From NCBI GenBank assembly GCA_024226515.1, contig JAAELQ010000046.1, positions 1 through 64,000 on the forward strand: a stretch of DNA of 64,000 nt, in the 5' to 3' direction. Each line of letters opens with the position of its first letter. Position 1 is the stretch's first letter. The position numbers were made by a program, and so were the translations under genes. Below, piece by piece: positions 1,165 through 8,406 of the stretch. The DNA is from a bacterium (GTDB taxonomy: Bacteria > Acidobacteriota > Polarisedimenticolia > Polarisedimenticolales > Polarisedimenticolaceae). Below the pieces are notes generated by a model that saw nothing but the letters and a program-made list of their open reading frames with translations, was not told the origin of the DNA and searched no databases.

Positions 1165-1389
1165 GCGCCCGTAGCTCAATGGCCATAGAACGGGGCGCGC
1201 GCGCACCGTGGAAGTTCGGCGCCGACGCGGCGCCGGGGGAACGGCGGAGTCCGACTCCTCCGACCGGGAGCCCGGCGTTTGCCGCGGCCCGACGTGCATC
1301 GGGCACAGCGGAAACGGTGCGACCGCGTTCCGGAAGAGCGCCGGCCCGTTAAGCCGGAGGAGCGGGTTCGATTCCCGTCGGGCGTGCCA
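1165..1389 (+). tRNA. tRNA-Asn(GUU)-like gene with a large insertion in the D-loop
   Basis: The ends form a tRNA. The acceptor stem pairs 1165-1171 (GCGCCCG) with 1379-1385 (CGGGCGT), with one G-U at the first pair, followed by discriminator G1386 and encoded CCA 1387-1389. U8 A9 are 1172-1173. The D-stem is GCTC 1174-1177 with GAGC 1336-1339. The D-loop begins AATGG (1178-1182, G18 G19). The anticodon stem is CCGGC 1341-1345 with GCCGG 1353-1357, and the loop CCGTTAA gives anticodon GUU at 1348-1350. The T-stem is GCGGG 1362-1366 with CCCGT 1374-1378, and the T-loop is canonical TTCGATT. Odd points: about 152 nt sit between G19 and A21, position 33 is C instead of the nearly universal U, and position 48 is A. 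Asn identity is consistent with G73 but rests on the anticodon. It could be a functional tRNA with an intron-like insert, a specialised non-translational tRNA, or a disrupted copy. Confidence 0.7.
1183..1334 (+). other. Structured insertion in the tRNA D-loop
   Basis: The extra segment folds back on itself. Long-range pairs are GAACG 1188-1192 with CGTTC 1326-1330 and GCACCGT 1203-1209 with ACGGTGC 1314-1320, and the possible pair CC 1183-1184 with GG 1332-1333 would stack it on the D-arm. Inside are local hairpins 1217-1235 (7 bp, loop GACGC), 1246-1258 (GGAGT/ACTCC), 1264-1275 (CCGG/CCGG) and 1287-1304 (GCCCGA/TCGGGC). The whole would be a multibranched domain projecting from the D-loop. 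I see no group I intron core, and the site is not the anticodon loop used by bacterial group I introns. The near-terminal inverted repeat could alternatively be that of a small mobile element. Confidence 0.6.
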
Positions 1390-1491
1390 TTCGCTCCGCC
1401 CTCCGTAACCCGCCCGAGGGAATCCTGTACCAGACCCTTGTGGAAGAAGTCCCGGGCGTGGCGTCCGTGGATCCGTTCAAGGGGGAGCGTC

Positions 1492-4400
1492 GTGAAGAAG
1501 CGGAGTCTTCGTGGTTTCTGTCTGACCCTGGTGTACACGATCGGGTTGGCGCTGGTGGTTGGATTACCCACGGCAGTACTGGCCCAGCCCTGCCCGGATG
1601 GCGACCTGGACGGCTACGCCGACTGCATGGTCCCCGGGTGCGACGACACGGGGCTGCTCTGCGGGGACTGCCGAGACGACCTTGCACCGGTGAATCCGGC
1701 GGCGCTCGAGATCTGCAACGGGCTCGACGACGACTGCAACGGTCTGGTCGACGAGGGCTCGACGCTTCTCACGGCACCGCTCCGCATCCGCGATCCCGAG
1801 AGCCGCGCCGGAGACGAATTCGGTGGAGCTCTTGCCGCGATCGGGGACCTGAACGGTGACGGGACTCCCGAGCTGGCCATTGGATCGAAGTTCGACGACG
1901 ACCAGGCCGGCAACGCGGGAACGGTCGTGGTCGTCAGCGGCTCGGACCGTACGGTGTGGTGCCGGCTGACCGACCCGACGGGGGCGGGCACGGACAATCT
2001 GGGCTGGTCCGTCGCGGGGATCGGGGACGTCGACTCCGATGCGATCCCCGACATCGCCGTGGGTGTCCCGCTGGACAACAACGCCGAAGGGGCGGATGCC
2101 GGCAAGATCGTTCTCTTCTCCGGTGCGGACTGCACCGTGATCCGGGAGCTGATCGACCCCAACGGGGCGAGCTCCGATCGACTGGGCTGGTCCGTCGCGG
2201 GCATCGCTGACGTGACCGGTGACGGTGTCGCCGACGTTGTCGGCGGCGCGCCGTTCGATCATACGGCGTTCGGCGACGCGGGCAGCGTCGTCCTGTTCTC
2301 GGGGGCCGACGGCACGGTCGCGTTCAAGGCCACCGACCCGCTCGGCGGTGGCAGTGACAACCTCGGCTGGTCCGTGGCCGCCGTCGGCGACATCGATGGC
2401 GACGGCATGCCCGACGTCGCCGCCGGGGCCTACCGCGCCGACACGACGCAGGGAGTCGACACGGGGCACGTGCTCCTGTTCTCGAGCGCCGACGGTTCGC
2501 TGGTGCGGCGGCTCGTCGATCCGAACGGCGTGAACTCGGATCAGCTGGGCTATGCGGTGGCCGGCATCGACGACCTCAGCGGCGACGGGATCGCCGATGT
2601 GCTGGCCGGGGTCGTGGGGGACGACAACGCGGGTGGAAGCGGCGCGGGAGCCGTCCTCGTCTTCTCGGGGGCCGACGGGAGCGTGGTGCGTACGCTCCTC
2701 GATCCCGCGGGGGCCGTGCAGGATCAGCTCGGCTTTGCCGTCGCGTCGGTTCCCGACGCGAACGGAGACGGGATGCCCGACGTGGCCGCGGCGGCGCCGT
2801 TCCGGGACACGCCCCAGGACGACGACGTCGGTCGCGTGCTGCTCTTCTCGGGCGCGGACGGGACGGTCCTGCGGACGTTTGCCGACGCGGAGGGCGCGTT
2901 CGAGGATCAGCTCGGAACCGCGTTGGCGGTCGCGGAGCTCAATGGCGACGGTGTTCCCGATCTCGTCGCCGGTGCCCCGTTTGCCGAAAGCGAGGAAGAG
3001 GTGAGCGTCGGACAGGCGATCCTCTTCGTGGTGCAAGCGGATTGCGACGGGGACGGCGTCGTGCCGATCGCGGGCGACTGCGACGACGGCGACGCGTCCA
3101 ACTGCCCCGGCAACCCCGAGACGTGCGACGGTCAGGACAACGACTGCGATCTCGTCGCCGACGAGGACGCGGACGGGGACGGCTTCGATGTCTGCTCCGA
3201 CTGCGGGCCGAGCAGCCCGCTCGTCTATCCGGGCGCGCCCGAGCGCTGCAACGGTGTCGATGACGACTGCAACCTCGTCATCGACGACGGGAGCGACGTC
3301 GACGTCGACGGCGTGGAGGCGCCGTGCGACTGCGACGACGACGACCCGAACGTGTTCCCCGGTCAGGTCGAGACCTGCAACGGTCTGGACGAGGATTGCG
3401 ATCGCATGGTCGATGAGGGATTCGCGCAAGAGACGTACGCCGAGCGCGTGATCGATCCCGAACAGTTCGCCGGAGACGAGATGGGCTACGACGTCGCCGC
3501 GGTCGGGGACGTGAACTCCGACGGCATCTCCGAGTTCGTCGTCGGAGTGCCGAACGACGACGAGGGGCTCGGTGGCTCGGGCAGCGTGCTGCTCTTCTCC
3601 GGGAGTGACCGTTCGCCGATCTGCCGCATGACACGCACGTCGCCGGCCAACTCGGATCAGCTAGGTTACTCGGTGGCCGGCATCGGCGACGTCGACGCGG
3701 ACGGCGTGCCGGACGTCGCGGCGGGGGCCATCTTCGCCGATCCGAGCGGGGGCAACTCCGGAGCGGTGGTGCTGTTCTCCGGCGCCGACTGCAGCGAGAT
3801 CCGCGTGCTCTCCGATCCGGACGGGGCGGGGAACGACAATCTCGGCTGGTCGGTGTCGGGGATCGACGACATCAGCGGCGACGGTATCCCGGACATCCTC
3901 GCCGGGTCTTACGGCGACGACGTCGACGGTGAGAACGACGCGGGCAGCGTGCTGGCCTTCTCCGGGGCCGACGGTACGGTGATCCACAAGCTGACCGACG
4001 CGGACGGGCGATTCCGCGACCGCCTCGGCGCGTCGGTGGCCGGGCTCGGCGACGTCGATCTCGACGGTGTTCCGGACATCGCCGCGGGCGCTCCGGAGGA
4101 CGACACGCTGCGGGGCAGCCAGGCAGGCACGGTGGCGGTCTTCTCCGGTGCCGACGGCTCGCGGATCCACACGCTACGCGACCCCGACGGCGCAGGTAGC
4201 GACCGCCTCGGGTTCTCCGTGGCCGGTATCGGCGACGTGAACGGGGACGACATCCCCGACATCGTCGCCGGCGCCCCGCAAAACGACGATGGCGTCTCGA
4301 ACGGGGGAGCCGTGTTGCTGTTCTCCGGCGCCGACGGCTCACGGATCCGCCAGATCACCGCCGCCGTCTCCTCGACCGCCTACCTCGGTCACTCCGTGGC

Positions 4401-7400
4401 GTCGATCCGGGACGTCGACGGCGACGGGATCCCCGACGTCGTCGCCGGGGCGCGCGCGGACGACAGCCAGGCGCAGAACGCGGGTAGTGTGCTGCTGCTG
4501 TCCGGCGCCGACGGATCGTTGATCGATCGGCTGACCGATCCTCTCGCCGGGCCCGACGACAACCTCGGATTCTCGCTCGCGGTGATTCCCGATCTGAGCG
4601 GGGACGGGATCCCGGAGATCCTCGCCGGCGCCGAGCTGGCCGACTCCGCCGAGGAGGCGGACACGGGTCGCGTGGTGCTGTTCTCCATCGGCTCCGATTG
4701 CGACGGAGACGGCCAGAGTCCGTTCGGCGGGGACTGCGACGACGGGAACCCCTCGCGCCGGACCGGCCAGCTCGAGGTGTGCGACGCGATCGACAACGAC
4801 TGCGACCTCGCGGTGGACGAGGACCAAGACGGAGACGGCGCCGACGCTTGCGCCGACTGCGACCCGGACGATCCGTCGATCTACCCCGGTGCGCCGGAGC
4901 GCTGCAACGGGAAGGACGATGACTGCGACACGGTCGTGGACAACGGCACGGACGGTGATCTGGACGGTGTCGAGACCCCGTGCGACTGCAACGACGAGGA
5001 CGACACGATCCTGCCGGGTGCGCCGGAGGTCTGCGACCGTACGGACAACGACTGCAACGGACTGGTCGACGAGACCGCCGCGCAGCCCGCGACGGCGATC
5101 CCGGTTCAGGATCCGGATGGTCTGTTCGCGGACGAGTACGGCATCGCCGTGGCCTCCATCGGCGATCTCACCGGGGACGGCGTCTCCGAGCTCGCGGTCG
5201 GGGCCTGGTTGGCCGGGTCGGGGAACTCCGGCAAGATCGTGGTCCACTCGGGGAGCGACCTCAGCAAGGTCTGTGACGCGGTCGACACGCTCGCGGGGTT
5301 CAACGAGACGCTGGGTACATCGGTGGCCGGCGTCGGCGACGTGAGCGGCGACGGCATCCCCGACTTCGCCGCGGGCGCCACGAGCGCCGACGGGACCGGG
5401 TTCGACACCGGGGTCCTCGTCGTGTTCTCGGGCGCTGACTGCACGACCTACCGTCGACTGACGCTCCCCGACGAGCAGGCCGACGACGAGCTCGGGGAGA
5501 GCGTGGCGGCTTTCCCGGACGTGACCGGCGACGGGGTCCCCGAGATCCTGGGCGGCGCGTGGCGCGACGACACGCCGCTCGGTGGAGGCAACGCCGGCAG
5601 CGCGGCCCTGTTCGACGGGGCGACCGGGGCGCAGGTGTTGCGTCTGATCGACCCCGACGGGCGTTCGGGGGACCAGCTCGGCTCGAGTGTCGCCGCGATC
5701 GGCGACGTGGACGGCGACGGGATCCCCGACATCGCCGCGGGCGCACCCCTCGATGACCACTTCCTGGGCGGCAGCGCCGGCAGCGTCTCCCTCTTCTCCG
5801 GCGCCGACGGCTCGCGGATCCGCAAGTTGATCGACGCCTCGGCGCCGTCGGGTGGCGCGAGGCTCGGCACCAGCGTCGCCGCGATCGGCGACGTGAATGC
5901 GGACGGCATCTCGGACATCGTCGCCGGCGCGCCGCGCGACGCCACCGAGGCCGGCACGGGAGGTGCGGTGGTCGTGTTCTCCGGGGCCGACGGCACGGTG
6001 CTGCACAAGCTCACCGACCCGCTCACGGAGAACGGCGACCAGCTCGGGTACCGCGTGATCGCGCTTCCCGACGTCAGCGGGGACGGCGTGCCCGACGTCG
6101 CGGCGGCCGTCTGGCTCGACGATACCGGCGGAGGAGTCGACGCGGGGAGCGTCGTCGTGTTCTCCGTGGCGGACGAGACGGTCCTGCGTCGCTTCTCCTA
6201 CGCCCTCGGAACCGAGGGAGACCGGCTCGCCACTTCAATCGCGATGCTCGGCGATCTCAGCGGAGACGGGATGCCCGAGATCCTCGCCGGAGCTCCGGAG
6301 GCCGAGCGTGCCGACGACGGCGCGGTCGGGCTCGCGGTGGTGTTCTCCATGGAGAGCGACTGCGACGGCGACGGAGTGAGCCCCTACGGTACGGATTGCG
6401 ACGATGCCGACGCGGCGAACTTCCCCGGCAACCCGGAGCTGTGCGACGCGCAGGACAACAACTGCAACGCTCTGGTCGACGAGGACGAGGACGGCGACGG
6501 GGTGGGCATCTGTCAGGACTGTGCGCCCACGAATCCGCAGATCTACCTCGGTGCGCCGGAGCGCTGCAACGGGCTCGACGATGACTGCGACACGGACGTC
6601 GACGAGGGGGACGACCTGGACGGCGACGGTTTCCAGACTCCCTGTGATTGCAACGACGACAATGATGCCATCCGTCCGGGCGTCGTCGAAGCGTGCGATC
6701 ACGTCGACACCAACTGCAACGGGGCGATCGACGAGGGGTTCCCGGCGCCGATCGCGCAGTTGAAGCTGGTCGACGACTTCGAGACGGCGGCGGACGGCTT
6801 CGGAGGATCCGTCGCCAACCTGGGCGACGTCAACGGGGACGGATTCCACGACTTCGTCGTCGGGGTGCCCGGGAACGACGATCTGTTCTCGGCCTCCGGC
6901 AAGGCCGTCGTCTACTCCGGTGCGACCCGTCTGCGAATCTGCAACCTGTACGACCCCGACGCGGCGGGGTCGGACAACCTCGGCGGCTCGACGGCGGGCA
7001 TCGGCGACGTCACCGGAGACGGGGTGCCCGACATCGTGGTGGGCTCCGGCCGGGACAACACGACGGCTGGAAACGACGCGGGGAGCGTGCTGTTGTTCTC
7101 CGGCGCCGACTGCTCGTTCGTGCGCAAGCTGGAGGACCCCCAGGGGTTGGCCGGCAACCAGCTCGGCGACGCGGTGACCGGCCTTTCCGACATCAGCGGG
7201 GACGGAGTTCCCGACGTTGCGGCGGGTGCCCCGTTCGACGACTCGCCGGTGGCGTCGAACTCCGGCAGCGCCACGGTCTGGTCGGGCGCCGACGGCTCGG
7301 TCCTGTTCCGACTCTTGAACCCGGCCGGGCGTGACGCCGACCGGATGGGCCAGTCCATCGCGGCGATCGGCGATGTCGATGCGGACGGCATCCCCGACAT

Positions 7401-8406
7401 CGCGGTCGGCGCCGACGGAGATTCCACCGTCTTTGCCAGCGGCGCCGGAACCGTGTCCCTCTTCTCGGGGGCGGACGGCTCGCTGATCCGCACGTTGCGC
7501 AACCCGAACGCGGCCTCCACCGACCTGCTCGGCATCTCGGTCGCCGGCATCGAGGACCTGAACGGCGACGGAATCGGGGACGTGGTCGCCGGCGCCTACC
7601 GGGCCAACAACGCGACTGCGAACGATGCGGGCAGCGTCTTCCTCTTCTCCGGCGCCGACGGTACCGTGTTGCTCGAGCTGTTCGATCCCGACGGCATGGG
7701 AGGGGCGTGGCTGGGCAACAGCGTGGCGGTCACGCCGGATCTCGACGGCGACGGACTGCAGGACGTCGTCGCGGGTGCCCCGTTCGAGGATGGCGTCGCC
7801 GGCACGGACACGGGCAGCGCCGTCATCTTCTCTTCTTCCTCGGGAGCCGTGCTGCGTAAGCTGACCGACGCGGAGGGGGCGGCGGACGACGAGCTGGGGC
7901 TCGCACTCGCCGTGGCCGGCGACATCAACCAGGGAGGAGCCACCGAGATTCTGGCCGGCGTCGCCGGGGACGACGGCCCGCCCGGTTCCGGGAGCGGAAG
8001 CGTGGTGCTGTTCGCCTTCGAGCCCGATTGCGACGGCGACGGTCAGTTGCCGCTGTTCGACTGCAACGACCTGGCCGGGGGGCTGCAGTCCGAGCCCGGC
8101 GAGGTGGTGAACCTGCGTTTCACCGACACGACCACGTTGACCTGGGACGTCCCGGTCGACTCGGGCGGCGATCCGTCCCTTCTCGTCTACGACGTGATCC
8201 GATCGGAGGACGCCATCGACCTGGTCGACGGCGCGATCTGCCTGGAGTCCCAGGACGGCAGCGACCGTCAAGCCACCGACGGCGACGTGATACTGCCCGG
8301 CGTCCCGTTCTACTACCAGGTGCGGGCCGGCAACCCGTGTGGACTCGGGGACCTGGGGAGCTGGAGCGACCAGGTGACGCGTCGCGAAGGGCGAGTCTGT
8401 CCGTGA
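1492..8406 (+). CDS. Secreted MopE/FG-GAP repeat protein with four beta-propellers
   Basis: I chose GTG 1492 because AAGGGGGAG lies just upstream and the following residues form a signal peptide (KKRSLRGFC, then a hydrophobic run ending AVLAQP); the longer open frame would run into the tRNA gene. The mature protein (2304 codons in all) starts with one MopE-type Cys motif (CNGLDDDCNGLVDEG). It then alternates four blocks of seven FG-GAP/VCBS repeats, each with a D-x-[ND]-G-D-G calcium-binding loop, with three linkers of three MopE motifs each. I counted 28 FG-GAP repeats, so four seven-bladed propellers are expected. The end (YYQVRAGNPCG...) looks like a fibronectin III-like C-terminal domain common in large secreted proteins of this kind. 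FG-GAP domains are known for calcium-dependent adhesion and MopE motifs are annotated as putative metal-binding. Role here: surface or extracellular adhesion, inferred. Confidence 0.9.
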   Translation: MKKRSLRGFCLTLVYTIGLALVVGLPTAVLAQPCPDGDLDGYADCMVPGCDDTGLLCGDCRDDLAPVNPAALEICNGLDDDCNGLVDEGSTLLTAPLRIRDPESRAGDEFGGALAAIGDLNGDGTPELAIGSKFDDDQAGNAGTVVVVSGSDRTVWCRLTDPTGAGTDNLGWSVAGIGDVDSDAIPDIAVGVPLDNNAEGADAGKIVLFSGADCTVIRELIDPNGASSDRLGWSVAGIADVTGDGVADVVGGAPFDHTAFGDAGSVVLFSGADGTVAFKATDPLGGGSDNLGWSVAAVGDIDGDGMPDVAAGAYRADTTQGVDTGHVLLFSSADGSLVRRLVDPNGVNSDQLGYAVAGIDDLSGDGIADVLAGVVGDDNAGGSGAGAVLVFSGADGSVVRTLLDPAGAVQDQLGFAVASVPDANGDGMPDVAAAAPFRDTPQDDDVGRVLLFSGADGTVLRTFADAEGAFEDQLGTALAVAELNGDGVPDLVAGAPFAESEEEVSVGQAILFVVQADCDGDGVVPIAGDCDDGDASNCPGNPETCDGQDNDCDLVADEDADGDGFDVCSDCGPSSPLVYPGAPERCNGVDDDCNLVIDDGSDVDVDGVEAPCDCDDDDPNVFPGQVETCNGLDEDCDRMVDEGFAQETYAERVIDPEQFAGDEMGYDVAAVGDVNSDGISEFVVGVPNDDEGLGGSGSVLLFSGSDRSPICRMTRTSPANSDQLGYSVAGIGDVDADGVPDVAAGAIFADPSGGNSGAVVLFSGADCSEIRVLSDPDGAGNDNLGWSVSGIDDISGDGIPDILAGSYGDDVDGENDAGSVLAFSGADGTVIHKLTDADGRFRDRLGASVAGLGDVDLDGVPDIAAGAPEDDTLRGSQAGTVAVFSGADGSRIHTLRDPDGAGSDRLGFSVAGIGDVNGDDIPDIVAGAPQNDDGVSNGGAVLLFSGADGSRIRQITAAVSSTAYLGHSVASIRDVDGDGIPDVVAGARADDSQAQNAGSVLLLSGADGSLIDRLTDPLAGPDDNLGFSLAVIPDLSGDGIPEILAGAELADSAEEADTGRVVLFSIGSDCDGDGQSPFGGDCDDGNPSRRTGQLEVCDAIDNDCDLAVDEDQDGDGADACADCDPDDPSIYPGAPERCNGKDDDCDTVVDNGTDGDLDGVETPCDCNDEDDTILPGAPEVCDRTDNDCNGLVDETAAQPATAIPVQDPDGLFADEYGIAVASIGDLTGDGVSELAVGAWLAGSGNSGKIVVHSGSDLSKVCDAVDTLAGFNETLGTSVAGVGDVSGDGIPDFAAGATSADGTGFDTGVLVVFSGADCTTYRRLTLPDEQADDELGESVAAFPDVTGDGVPEILGGAWRDDTPLGGGNAGSAALFDGATGAQVLRLIDPDGRSGDQLGSSVAAIGDVDGDGIPDIAAGAPLDDHFLGGSAGSVSLFSGADGSRIRKLIDASAPSGGARLGTSVAAIGDVNADGISDIVAGAPRDATEAGTGGAVVVFSGADGTVLHKLTDPLTENGDQLGYRVIALPDVSGDGVPDVAAAVWLDDTGGGVDAGSVVVFSVADETVLRRFSYALGTEGDRLATSIAMLGDLSGDGMPEILAGAPEAERADDGAVGLAVVFSMESDCDGDGVSPYGTDCDDADAANFPGNPELCDAQDNNCNALVDEDEDGDGVGICQDCAPTNPQIYLGAPERCNGLDDDCDTDVDEGDDLDGDGFQTPCDCNDDNDAIRPGVVEACDHVDTNCNGAIDEGFPAPIAQLKLVDDFETAADGFGGSVANLGDVNGDGFHDFVVGVPGNDDLFSASGKAVVYSGATRLRICNLYDPDAAGSDNLGGSTAGIGDVTGDGVPDIVVGSGRDNTTAGNDAGSVLLFSGADCSFVRKLEDPQGLAGNQLGDAVTGLSDISGDGVPDVAAGAPFDDSPVASNSGSATVWSGADGSVLFRLLNPAGRDADRMGQSIAAIGDVDADGIPDIAVGADGDSTVFASGAGTVSLFSGADGSLIRTLRNPNAASTDLLGISVAGIEDLNGDGIGDVVAGAYRANNATANDAGSVFLFSGADGTVLLELFDPDGMGGAWLGNSVAVTPDLDGDGLQDVVAGAPFEDGVAGTDTGSAVIFSSSSGAVLRKLTDAEGAADDELGLALAVAGDINQGGATEILAGVAGDDGPPGSGSGSVVLFAFEPDCDGDGQLPLFDCNDLAGGLQSEPGEVVNLRFTDTTTLTWDVPVDSGGDPSLLVYDVIRSEDAIDLVDGAICLESQDGSDRQATDGDVILPGVPFYYQVRAGNPCGLGDLGSWSDQVTRREGRVCP
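1785..8020 (+). repeat. Coding repeat: 28 FG-GAP blades in four sets of seven, with MopE linkers
   Basis: Blade sets lie at about 1785-3030, 3435-4690, 5095-6350 and 6760-8020. Each blade of about 60 residues begins with a DP-like turn, then LG-S-V-A-GI-DV, a DGDGIPD-type calcium loop and an AGAP-like strand end, then VVLFSGADGS. Between sets are about 390-bp Cys/Asp-rich linkers (about 3031-3425, 4691-5075 and 6351-6740), each with three motifs of the CNGxDDDCDxxVDxG type. The regular 7+linker period suggests whole-module duplication rather than blade-by-blade growth. Confidence 0.85.

Follow-up and report, generated by a model that had tools for sequence, protein, structure and literature searches.

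Duplicated aminoacyl-tRNA synthetases that stand beside an odd tRNA with the anticodon of another amino acid have been described in Streptomyces and Kitasatospora, where the ProRSx isoform is co-encoded with tRNA-ProX, which carries a foreign anticodon (an Asn form, AUU, exists), has lost U33 and combines A15 with A48, and a role in mistranslation has been proposed for this pair in actinomycetes (PMC11415595). An extra LeuRS beside the housekeeping one is found as LeuRS-I in Sulfolobaceae and as LeuRS2 in Halobacteria (PMC9437257), and allo-tRNAs (8/4 and 9/3, present also in Acidobacteria) are rare bacterial tRNAs of odd architecture, some of which are thought to need a synthetase of their own (PMC7609411). 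PylRS and tRNA-Pyl, including PylRS2 with tRNA-Pyl2, exemplify a tRNA to which a separate synthetase, of class II, is dedicated; the anticodon is CUA. The D-loop of tRNA-Pyl is reduced. Folded RNA also interrupts tRNA genes in the form of bacterial group I introns and archaeal D-loop introns.

Here we describe a tRNA(GUU) gene of Acidobacteriota with an RNA domain of about 150 nt in its D-loop, and a LeuRS paralog, LeuRSx, confined to the same genomes. As in the ProRSx/tRNA-ProX case, a duplicated synthetase accompanies an odd tRNA, U33 is lost (in the window copy), A15 meets A48 and the canonical synthetase is kept in the genome; unlike it, the enzyme is of class I and LeuRS-derived, its pocket is rebuilt, the D-loop carries the large domain and the phylum is another one. 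LeuRSx shares a disrupted CP1 with LeuRS-I, whereas LeuRS-I and LeuRS2 bind ordinary tRNA-Leu and the review reports no dedicated tRNA gene for them (PMC9437257), and the deviations of allo-tRNAs, in contrast, concern the acceptor/T-arm and the variable arm, with neither a 150-nt D-loop domain nor a LeuRS partner (PMC7609411). The likeness to PylRS/tRNA-Pyl lies in a tRNA with its own synthetase and possibly in an extra amino acid, whereas the class I LeuRS fold, the anticodon GUU and the extended D-loop set our locus apart. From both kinds of tRNA introns it differs by the lack of an intron core, of conserved junctions and of an endonuclease. To our knowledge, a conserved RNA domain of about 150 nt has not been described in the D-loop of any bacterial tRNA, and our search of open-licence papers found no such case.

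The window (the whole analysed stretch of 64,000 nucleotides, on contig C46 of its genome) contains the following features of this gene, which are in full agreement with the coordinates, the arms and the 152 nt between G19 and A21 that a sequence-only reading had proposed:

1165-1389, plus strand: tRNA(GUU) gene with D-loop domain and encoded CCA (covariance model R1, 220.9 bits)
1165-1171, plus strand: 5' strand of the 7-bp acceptor stem, partner 1379-1385 (same in the three homologues)
1174-1177, plus strand: 5' strand of the 4-bp D-stem, GCTC, partner GAGC at 1336-1339 (alignment and pairing)
1178-1182, plus strand: D-loop A14 A15 U16 G18 G19 (kept in every homologue)
1183-1334, plus strand: structured insert, the D-arm RNA domain, 152 nt between G19 and A21 (homologue alignment and folds)
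1341-1357, plus strand: anticodon arm, 5-bp stem, loop CCGTTAA with GUU at 1348-1350 and C33 (Rfam, alignment)
1362-1378, plus strand: T-arm, 5-bp stem, loop TTCGATT (window sequence, Rfam)
1387-1389, plus strand: encoded CCA (window sequence)

The cloverleaf thus has the 7/5 acceptor branch, the T-loop, CCA and G18/G19 of a tRNA. ARAGORN called no tRNA anywhere in the window, and Rfam RF00005 aligns only the 3' part of the gene (1319-1386, 31.6 bits). The genome (6.5 Mb, 320 contigs) yielded 48 tRNA matches, and since two of them are tRNA-Asn(GUU) called by ARAGORN, the gene of the window is an extra one. The second, ordinary tRNA-Asn that the sequence-only reading had suggested looking for was found on contig C40, with 89-100% identical copies in relatives. 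The body of the window tRNA is nearest to Ala, Arg and Thr tRNAs (72-80%); tRNA-Asn is absent from its top six matches, and a relation of the body to the resident tRNA-Asn was not found. The variable loop is short, the large RNA arm being placed at the elbow, and A15 stands with A48 in these tRNAs except for C48 in one homologue, Mor1.

Some further observations were made in this genome. The other tRNA-Asn(GUU) of ordinary size (C8:109686-109756; L035:84-157), with the sequence TGAGGCGTGAGG..., is very unlike the conserved one of C40 and possibly comes from a mobile element. A weak tRNA match (33.4 bits) at C315:1739-1842 (L044), whose 3' part is apparently displaced or lost, is rejected by ARAGORN. 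Directly downstream of the odd gene, positions 1489-8406 of the window encode a protein of about 2300 aa in which FG-GAP and MopE metal-binding repeats are numerous.

With the 225-nt gene as a query, two further copies were found in 60 related genomes:

1295613-1295840, minus strand, CP011806.1: copy in Acidobacteria bacterium Mor1, same family as the window genome
C38:1881-2104, SMYD01000123.1: copy in the metagenome-assembled genome N074bin37, same class, another family

The lineage of Mor1 is subdivision 22 of Acidobacteriota. A pattern scan of all species genomes returned these two homologues and three false matches (tandem tRNA arrays in two cases, a complete plain tRNA-Asn in the third), and an RNA model of the insert alone gave strong matches among the class genomes in the same three only, the others being at chance level. 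When model R1 was applied phylum-wide, with 5 candidates per genome scored, the other inspected matches were plain tRNAs or tandem Arg tRNAs, and viral contigs scanned with a gapped tRNA pattern yielded only tandem tRNAs. Only three members are known, two of them in one family. In that family 2 of the 6 members in our comparison set carry the tRNA together with LeuRSx, and a genome of the same genus as N074bin37 (G017, 80% complete) is without the set.

Across the three homologues the insert keeps its position and a length of 151-155 nt. Its fold is one long arm of stacked helices, at the end of which a variable arm of about 80 nt and a conserved hairpin meet in a three-way junction:

1191-1199, plus strand: helix P1, 9 bp, partner 1324-1332 (covarying pairs; same helix region in separate minimum-free-energy folds, N074bin37 pairing P1 partly)
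1202-1209, plus strand: helix P2, 8 bp, partner 1314-1321 (strongest compensatory changes)
1212-1215, plus strand: helix P3, up to 4 bp, partner 1308-1311 (RNAalifold, pairing count, single folds)
1216-1292, plus strand: variable long arm P4 of the three-way junction (folds; pairing detail weak)
1294-1306, plus strand: conserved hairpin P5, GTGC-ATCGG-GCAC (GCGC/GCGC in Mor1), loop NYCGG (pairing count, folds)

The helix P2, for instance, is formed by CGCACCGT/ACGGTGCG in the window copy and by CGTGCAGA/TCTGCACG in Mor1. RNAalifold on the three homologues gave 19 pairs changed on both sides, and the named structure (P1, P2, P3 and P5 plus the cloverleaf) has 96.3% of its cells paired, with 11 pairs changed on both sides. 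Shuffled controls had on average 5.1 such pairs and none of 500 equalled the named structure, a result which, with three sequences, is not readable as a probability; when partners were slid, only 1-3 pairs were changed on both sides and pairing fell to 32-47%. Chance is unlikely in view of this control and of how long the covarying helices are. Single folds (Mor1 unconstrained, the window and N074bin37 copies with the cloverleaf enforced) have a common topology of D-stem, stacked P1-P2-P3, three-way junction, long variable arm and NYCGG hairpin, with P1 in N074bin37 and the arm P4 being less certain. The fold energy of the window copy is only mildly unusual (z = -2.2 for the insert and -0.9 for the whole gene), so that the case for structure rests on the comparison of homologues. 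A covariance model of the three scores them at 219-235 bits, and nothing else in the same stretches scores above 17.6 bits.

In the alignment of the three, the tRNA body has 65 invariant columns out of 73, the insert 63 out of 160 (40%). According to our comparison of these sequences, the insert is a conserved RNA domain, which diverged strongly and kept its fold while the body remained almost unchanged. The earlier suggestion that the D-arm carries an RNA domain, as opposed to random DNA, is borne out by these compensatory changes, as is the structured nature of the insert; the long-range helix with four hairpins that had been drawn for it gives way to a single arm with a three-way junction. 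Nor is the insert private to one genome and free of covariation, which would have spoken for a recent insertion.

A near-identical body around a diverging insert would also be expected from an intron of an unrecognised type, excised before charging to leave a tRNA of about 75 nt, and D-loop introns of Archaea and D-loop junctions of algae (PMC3978253) provide precedents. However, the tRNA-splicing endonuclease PF01974 is found in none of the three genomes, with positive controls in 4 archaea, no group I, group II or other Rfam intron matches the insert up to E = 10, and the junctions vary (CCAU/UCAG/ACCA and CGGA/CCCA/UGCU) and are without the terminal G of group I introns. Moreover, none of the relatives searched has an uninterrupted copy, the whole gene being missing instead, and excision at the borders drawn in the sequence-only reading would leave a D-loop of 6 nt. 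We regard this explanation, to which that reading had also pointed, as quite improbable. One may also take C33 and G73 of the window copy, in a genome with an ordinary tRNA-Asn, for signs of a disrupted or decaying tRNA-Asn copy, as had been considered for C33. Both relatives have U33 and A73, with everything else conserved, and the invariance of the body as well as the position, length and covarying fold of the insert, kept in another family, leave decay hardly any credibility. In all three homologues G34 U35 U36 A37 A38 are constant while positions 32 and 33 vary, which indicates that the anticodon matters for something, whether decoding, modification or recognition.

The next gene after CCA on the same strand, 16 nt away in Mor1 and 26 nt in N074bin37, is an ORF of 588-590 aa related to leucyl-tRNA synthetases, here called LeuRSx. 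In the window genome its counterpart lies on a separate contig (C286:14245-15921, 52% identity, no stops), the tRNA being on C46, and the partner was missed by the sequence-only reading because it is outside the window. Full-length matches of about 50% identity were found in N074bin37, Mor1 and the window genome only, both among 41 genomes of the class and among 396 of Acidobacteriota; the paralog is therefore present only with the odd tRNA, in the same 3 of 41 and 3 of 396 genomes. Such a co-occurrence would arise by chance with a probability of about 1e-4 (41 genomes) or 1e-7 (396 genomes) if genomes were independent, which they are not. A canonical LeuRS is also present in all three, and a search of viral contigs found no LeuRSx. 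Besides the synthetase, no neighbours common to the three loci were found with Pfam. In N074bin37 the unit adjoins divergent genes of S-adenosylmethionine decarboxylase and spermidine synthase (L166:173-1559), which are absent from the other two loci.

The distance of 16-26 nt between tRNA and synthetase in two genomes would also suit a cis-acting, tRNA-like leader that controls the synthetase gene behind it by substrate mimicry. Against this, the window copy is on another contig, upstream of the MopE/FG-GAP gene, with all tRNA parts and CCA kept, and covariance model R1 found no second copy of the odd tRNA ahead of the C286 synthetase, and we find such a leader very improbable.

The LeuRSx paralogs form one clade (support 100/100), with 47-52% identity among themselves, as compared with 28-39% when aligned with canonical LeuRS. 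Two linked LeuRSx reach 395.6 and 343.1 bits with leuS_bact, below its curated cut-off of 548.4; PF00133 matches the catalytic part of both LeuRSx scanned, and the best solved relative is LeuRS of T. thermophilus. The region of the CP1 editing domain (WIGRS to DW) measures 16-21 aa, whereas canonical LeuRS have about 205 aa there, and LeuRSx is also devoid of the C-terminal domain. All three keep the class I signatures HMGH and KMSK as well as D80, which we take to be the aspartate holding the amino group. The leucine pocket, in contrast to 12 canonical and 3 cyanobacterial CP1-less LeuRS, where it is invariant (L or F at 41), is not conserved: M40/L41/Y43/Y499/Y527, presumably in E. coli LeuRS numbering, are replaced by S/(G,T)/F/C/(F,C), and the H533/H537 region is also altered. 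As the predicted structure of LeuRSx (two-row alignment) is poor, with pLDDT of 39, the reading of the pocket depends on the sequence alignment, which is gapped near H533. Pocket positions of this kind are those that engineers alter in LeuRS for other amino acids. Because the pocket is rebuilt, the substrate of LeuRSx is probably other than leucine, and probably bulkier or more polar.

CP1-less LeuRS of cyanobacterial plasmids, considered as possible relatives of LeuRSx, form a separate clade with an intact leucine pocket and have no tRNA nearby. They were seen in Aulosira laxa NIES-50 (L170:6001-7869), Nostoc sp. MS1 (L171:6001-7863) and Kovacikia minuta (L172:6001-7880), with a conserved short stretch similar to ATGATGCACGACTGGGACCTRTAA and a GGATC/GATCC hairpin upstream, and are possibly a regulated spare or an inhibitor-resistant LeuRS.

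The anatomy of the tRNA, the fold of the insert, the co-occurrence and operon-like linkage, the catalytic motifs and the domain losses with the pocket change are read directly from sequence, and from them we infer that LeuRSx charges this tRNA with its domain retained and serving for recognition, and what the amino acid and its use may be. It would be logical to suggest, and we hold it for rather probable, that the locus encodes a dedicated tRNA/synthetase pair, in which the D-arm domain is the recognition element and the amino acid is probably not leucine. LeuRSx, derived from LeuRS, would charge this tRNA, and the domain of about 150 nt on the outer face of the elbow would stay in the RNA, where LeuRSx would recognise it as an identity element and other synthetases would be kept off by it. 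Ordinary LeuRS does not read the anticodon; through its C-terminal domain it contacts tRNA-Leu at the elbow and along the long variable arm. The D-arm domain may replace this contact, the C-terminal domain being lost from LeuRSx. The charged RNA, loaded probably with an amino acid other than leucine, would either read AAC/AAU codons under particular conditions or donate its amino acid off the ribosome; a domain of such size at the elbow should clash with the ribosome and EF-Tu partners, which makes decoding doubtful. Counted against a dedicated pair are the number of only three members, two of them in one family, the scoring of only 5 candidates per genome in the phylum-wide RNA search, the location of tRNA and LeuRSx on C46 and C286 in the window genome, and C33 and G73 of the window copy.

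The strongest rival is a pair devoted to mistranslation, similar to ProRSx/tRNA-ProX, in which LeuRSx would load leucine or a near relative for insertion at Asn codons. The GUU anticodon, carried by a tRNA whose body most resembles Ala, Arg and Thr tRNAs, C33 of the window copy, A15 with A48 (C48 in Mor1) and the co-encoded LeuRS isoform all agree with it, whereas the leucine pocket is not conserved in LeuRSx, tRNA-ProX has no D-arm domain, and 150 nt at the elbow are hard to fit in the ribosome; we consider mistranslation unlikely, though not negligible.

Returning to a dedicated pair, we may tentatively go further, with less confidence than for the pair itself, and suggest a natural orthogonal system, in which a LeuRS-derived enzyme would load either an amino acid beyond the standard twenty or one of these twenty destined for use off the ribosome, by means of a mounted RNA domain replacing a lost protein domain. 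The locus is a candidate for an orthogonal pair that does not descend from the PylRS, TyrRS or ProRS lines, and its tRNA makes it possible to test directly if large RNA domains are able to act as tRNA identity elements. Genes of this kind are skipped by standard tRNA finders, and more of them may be hidden in genomes. If the amino acid is non-standard, the finding would bear on the number of amino acids that are loaded onto tRNA in nature.
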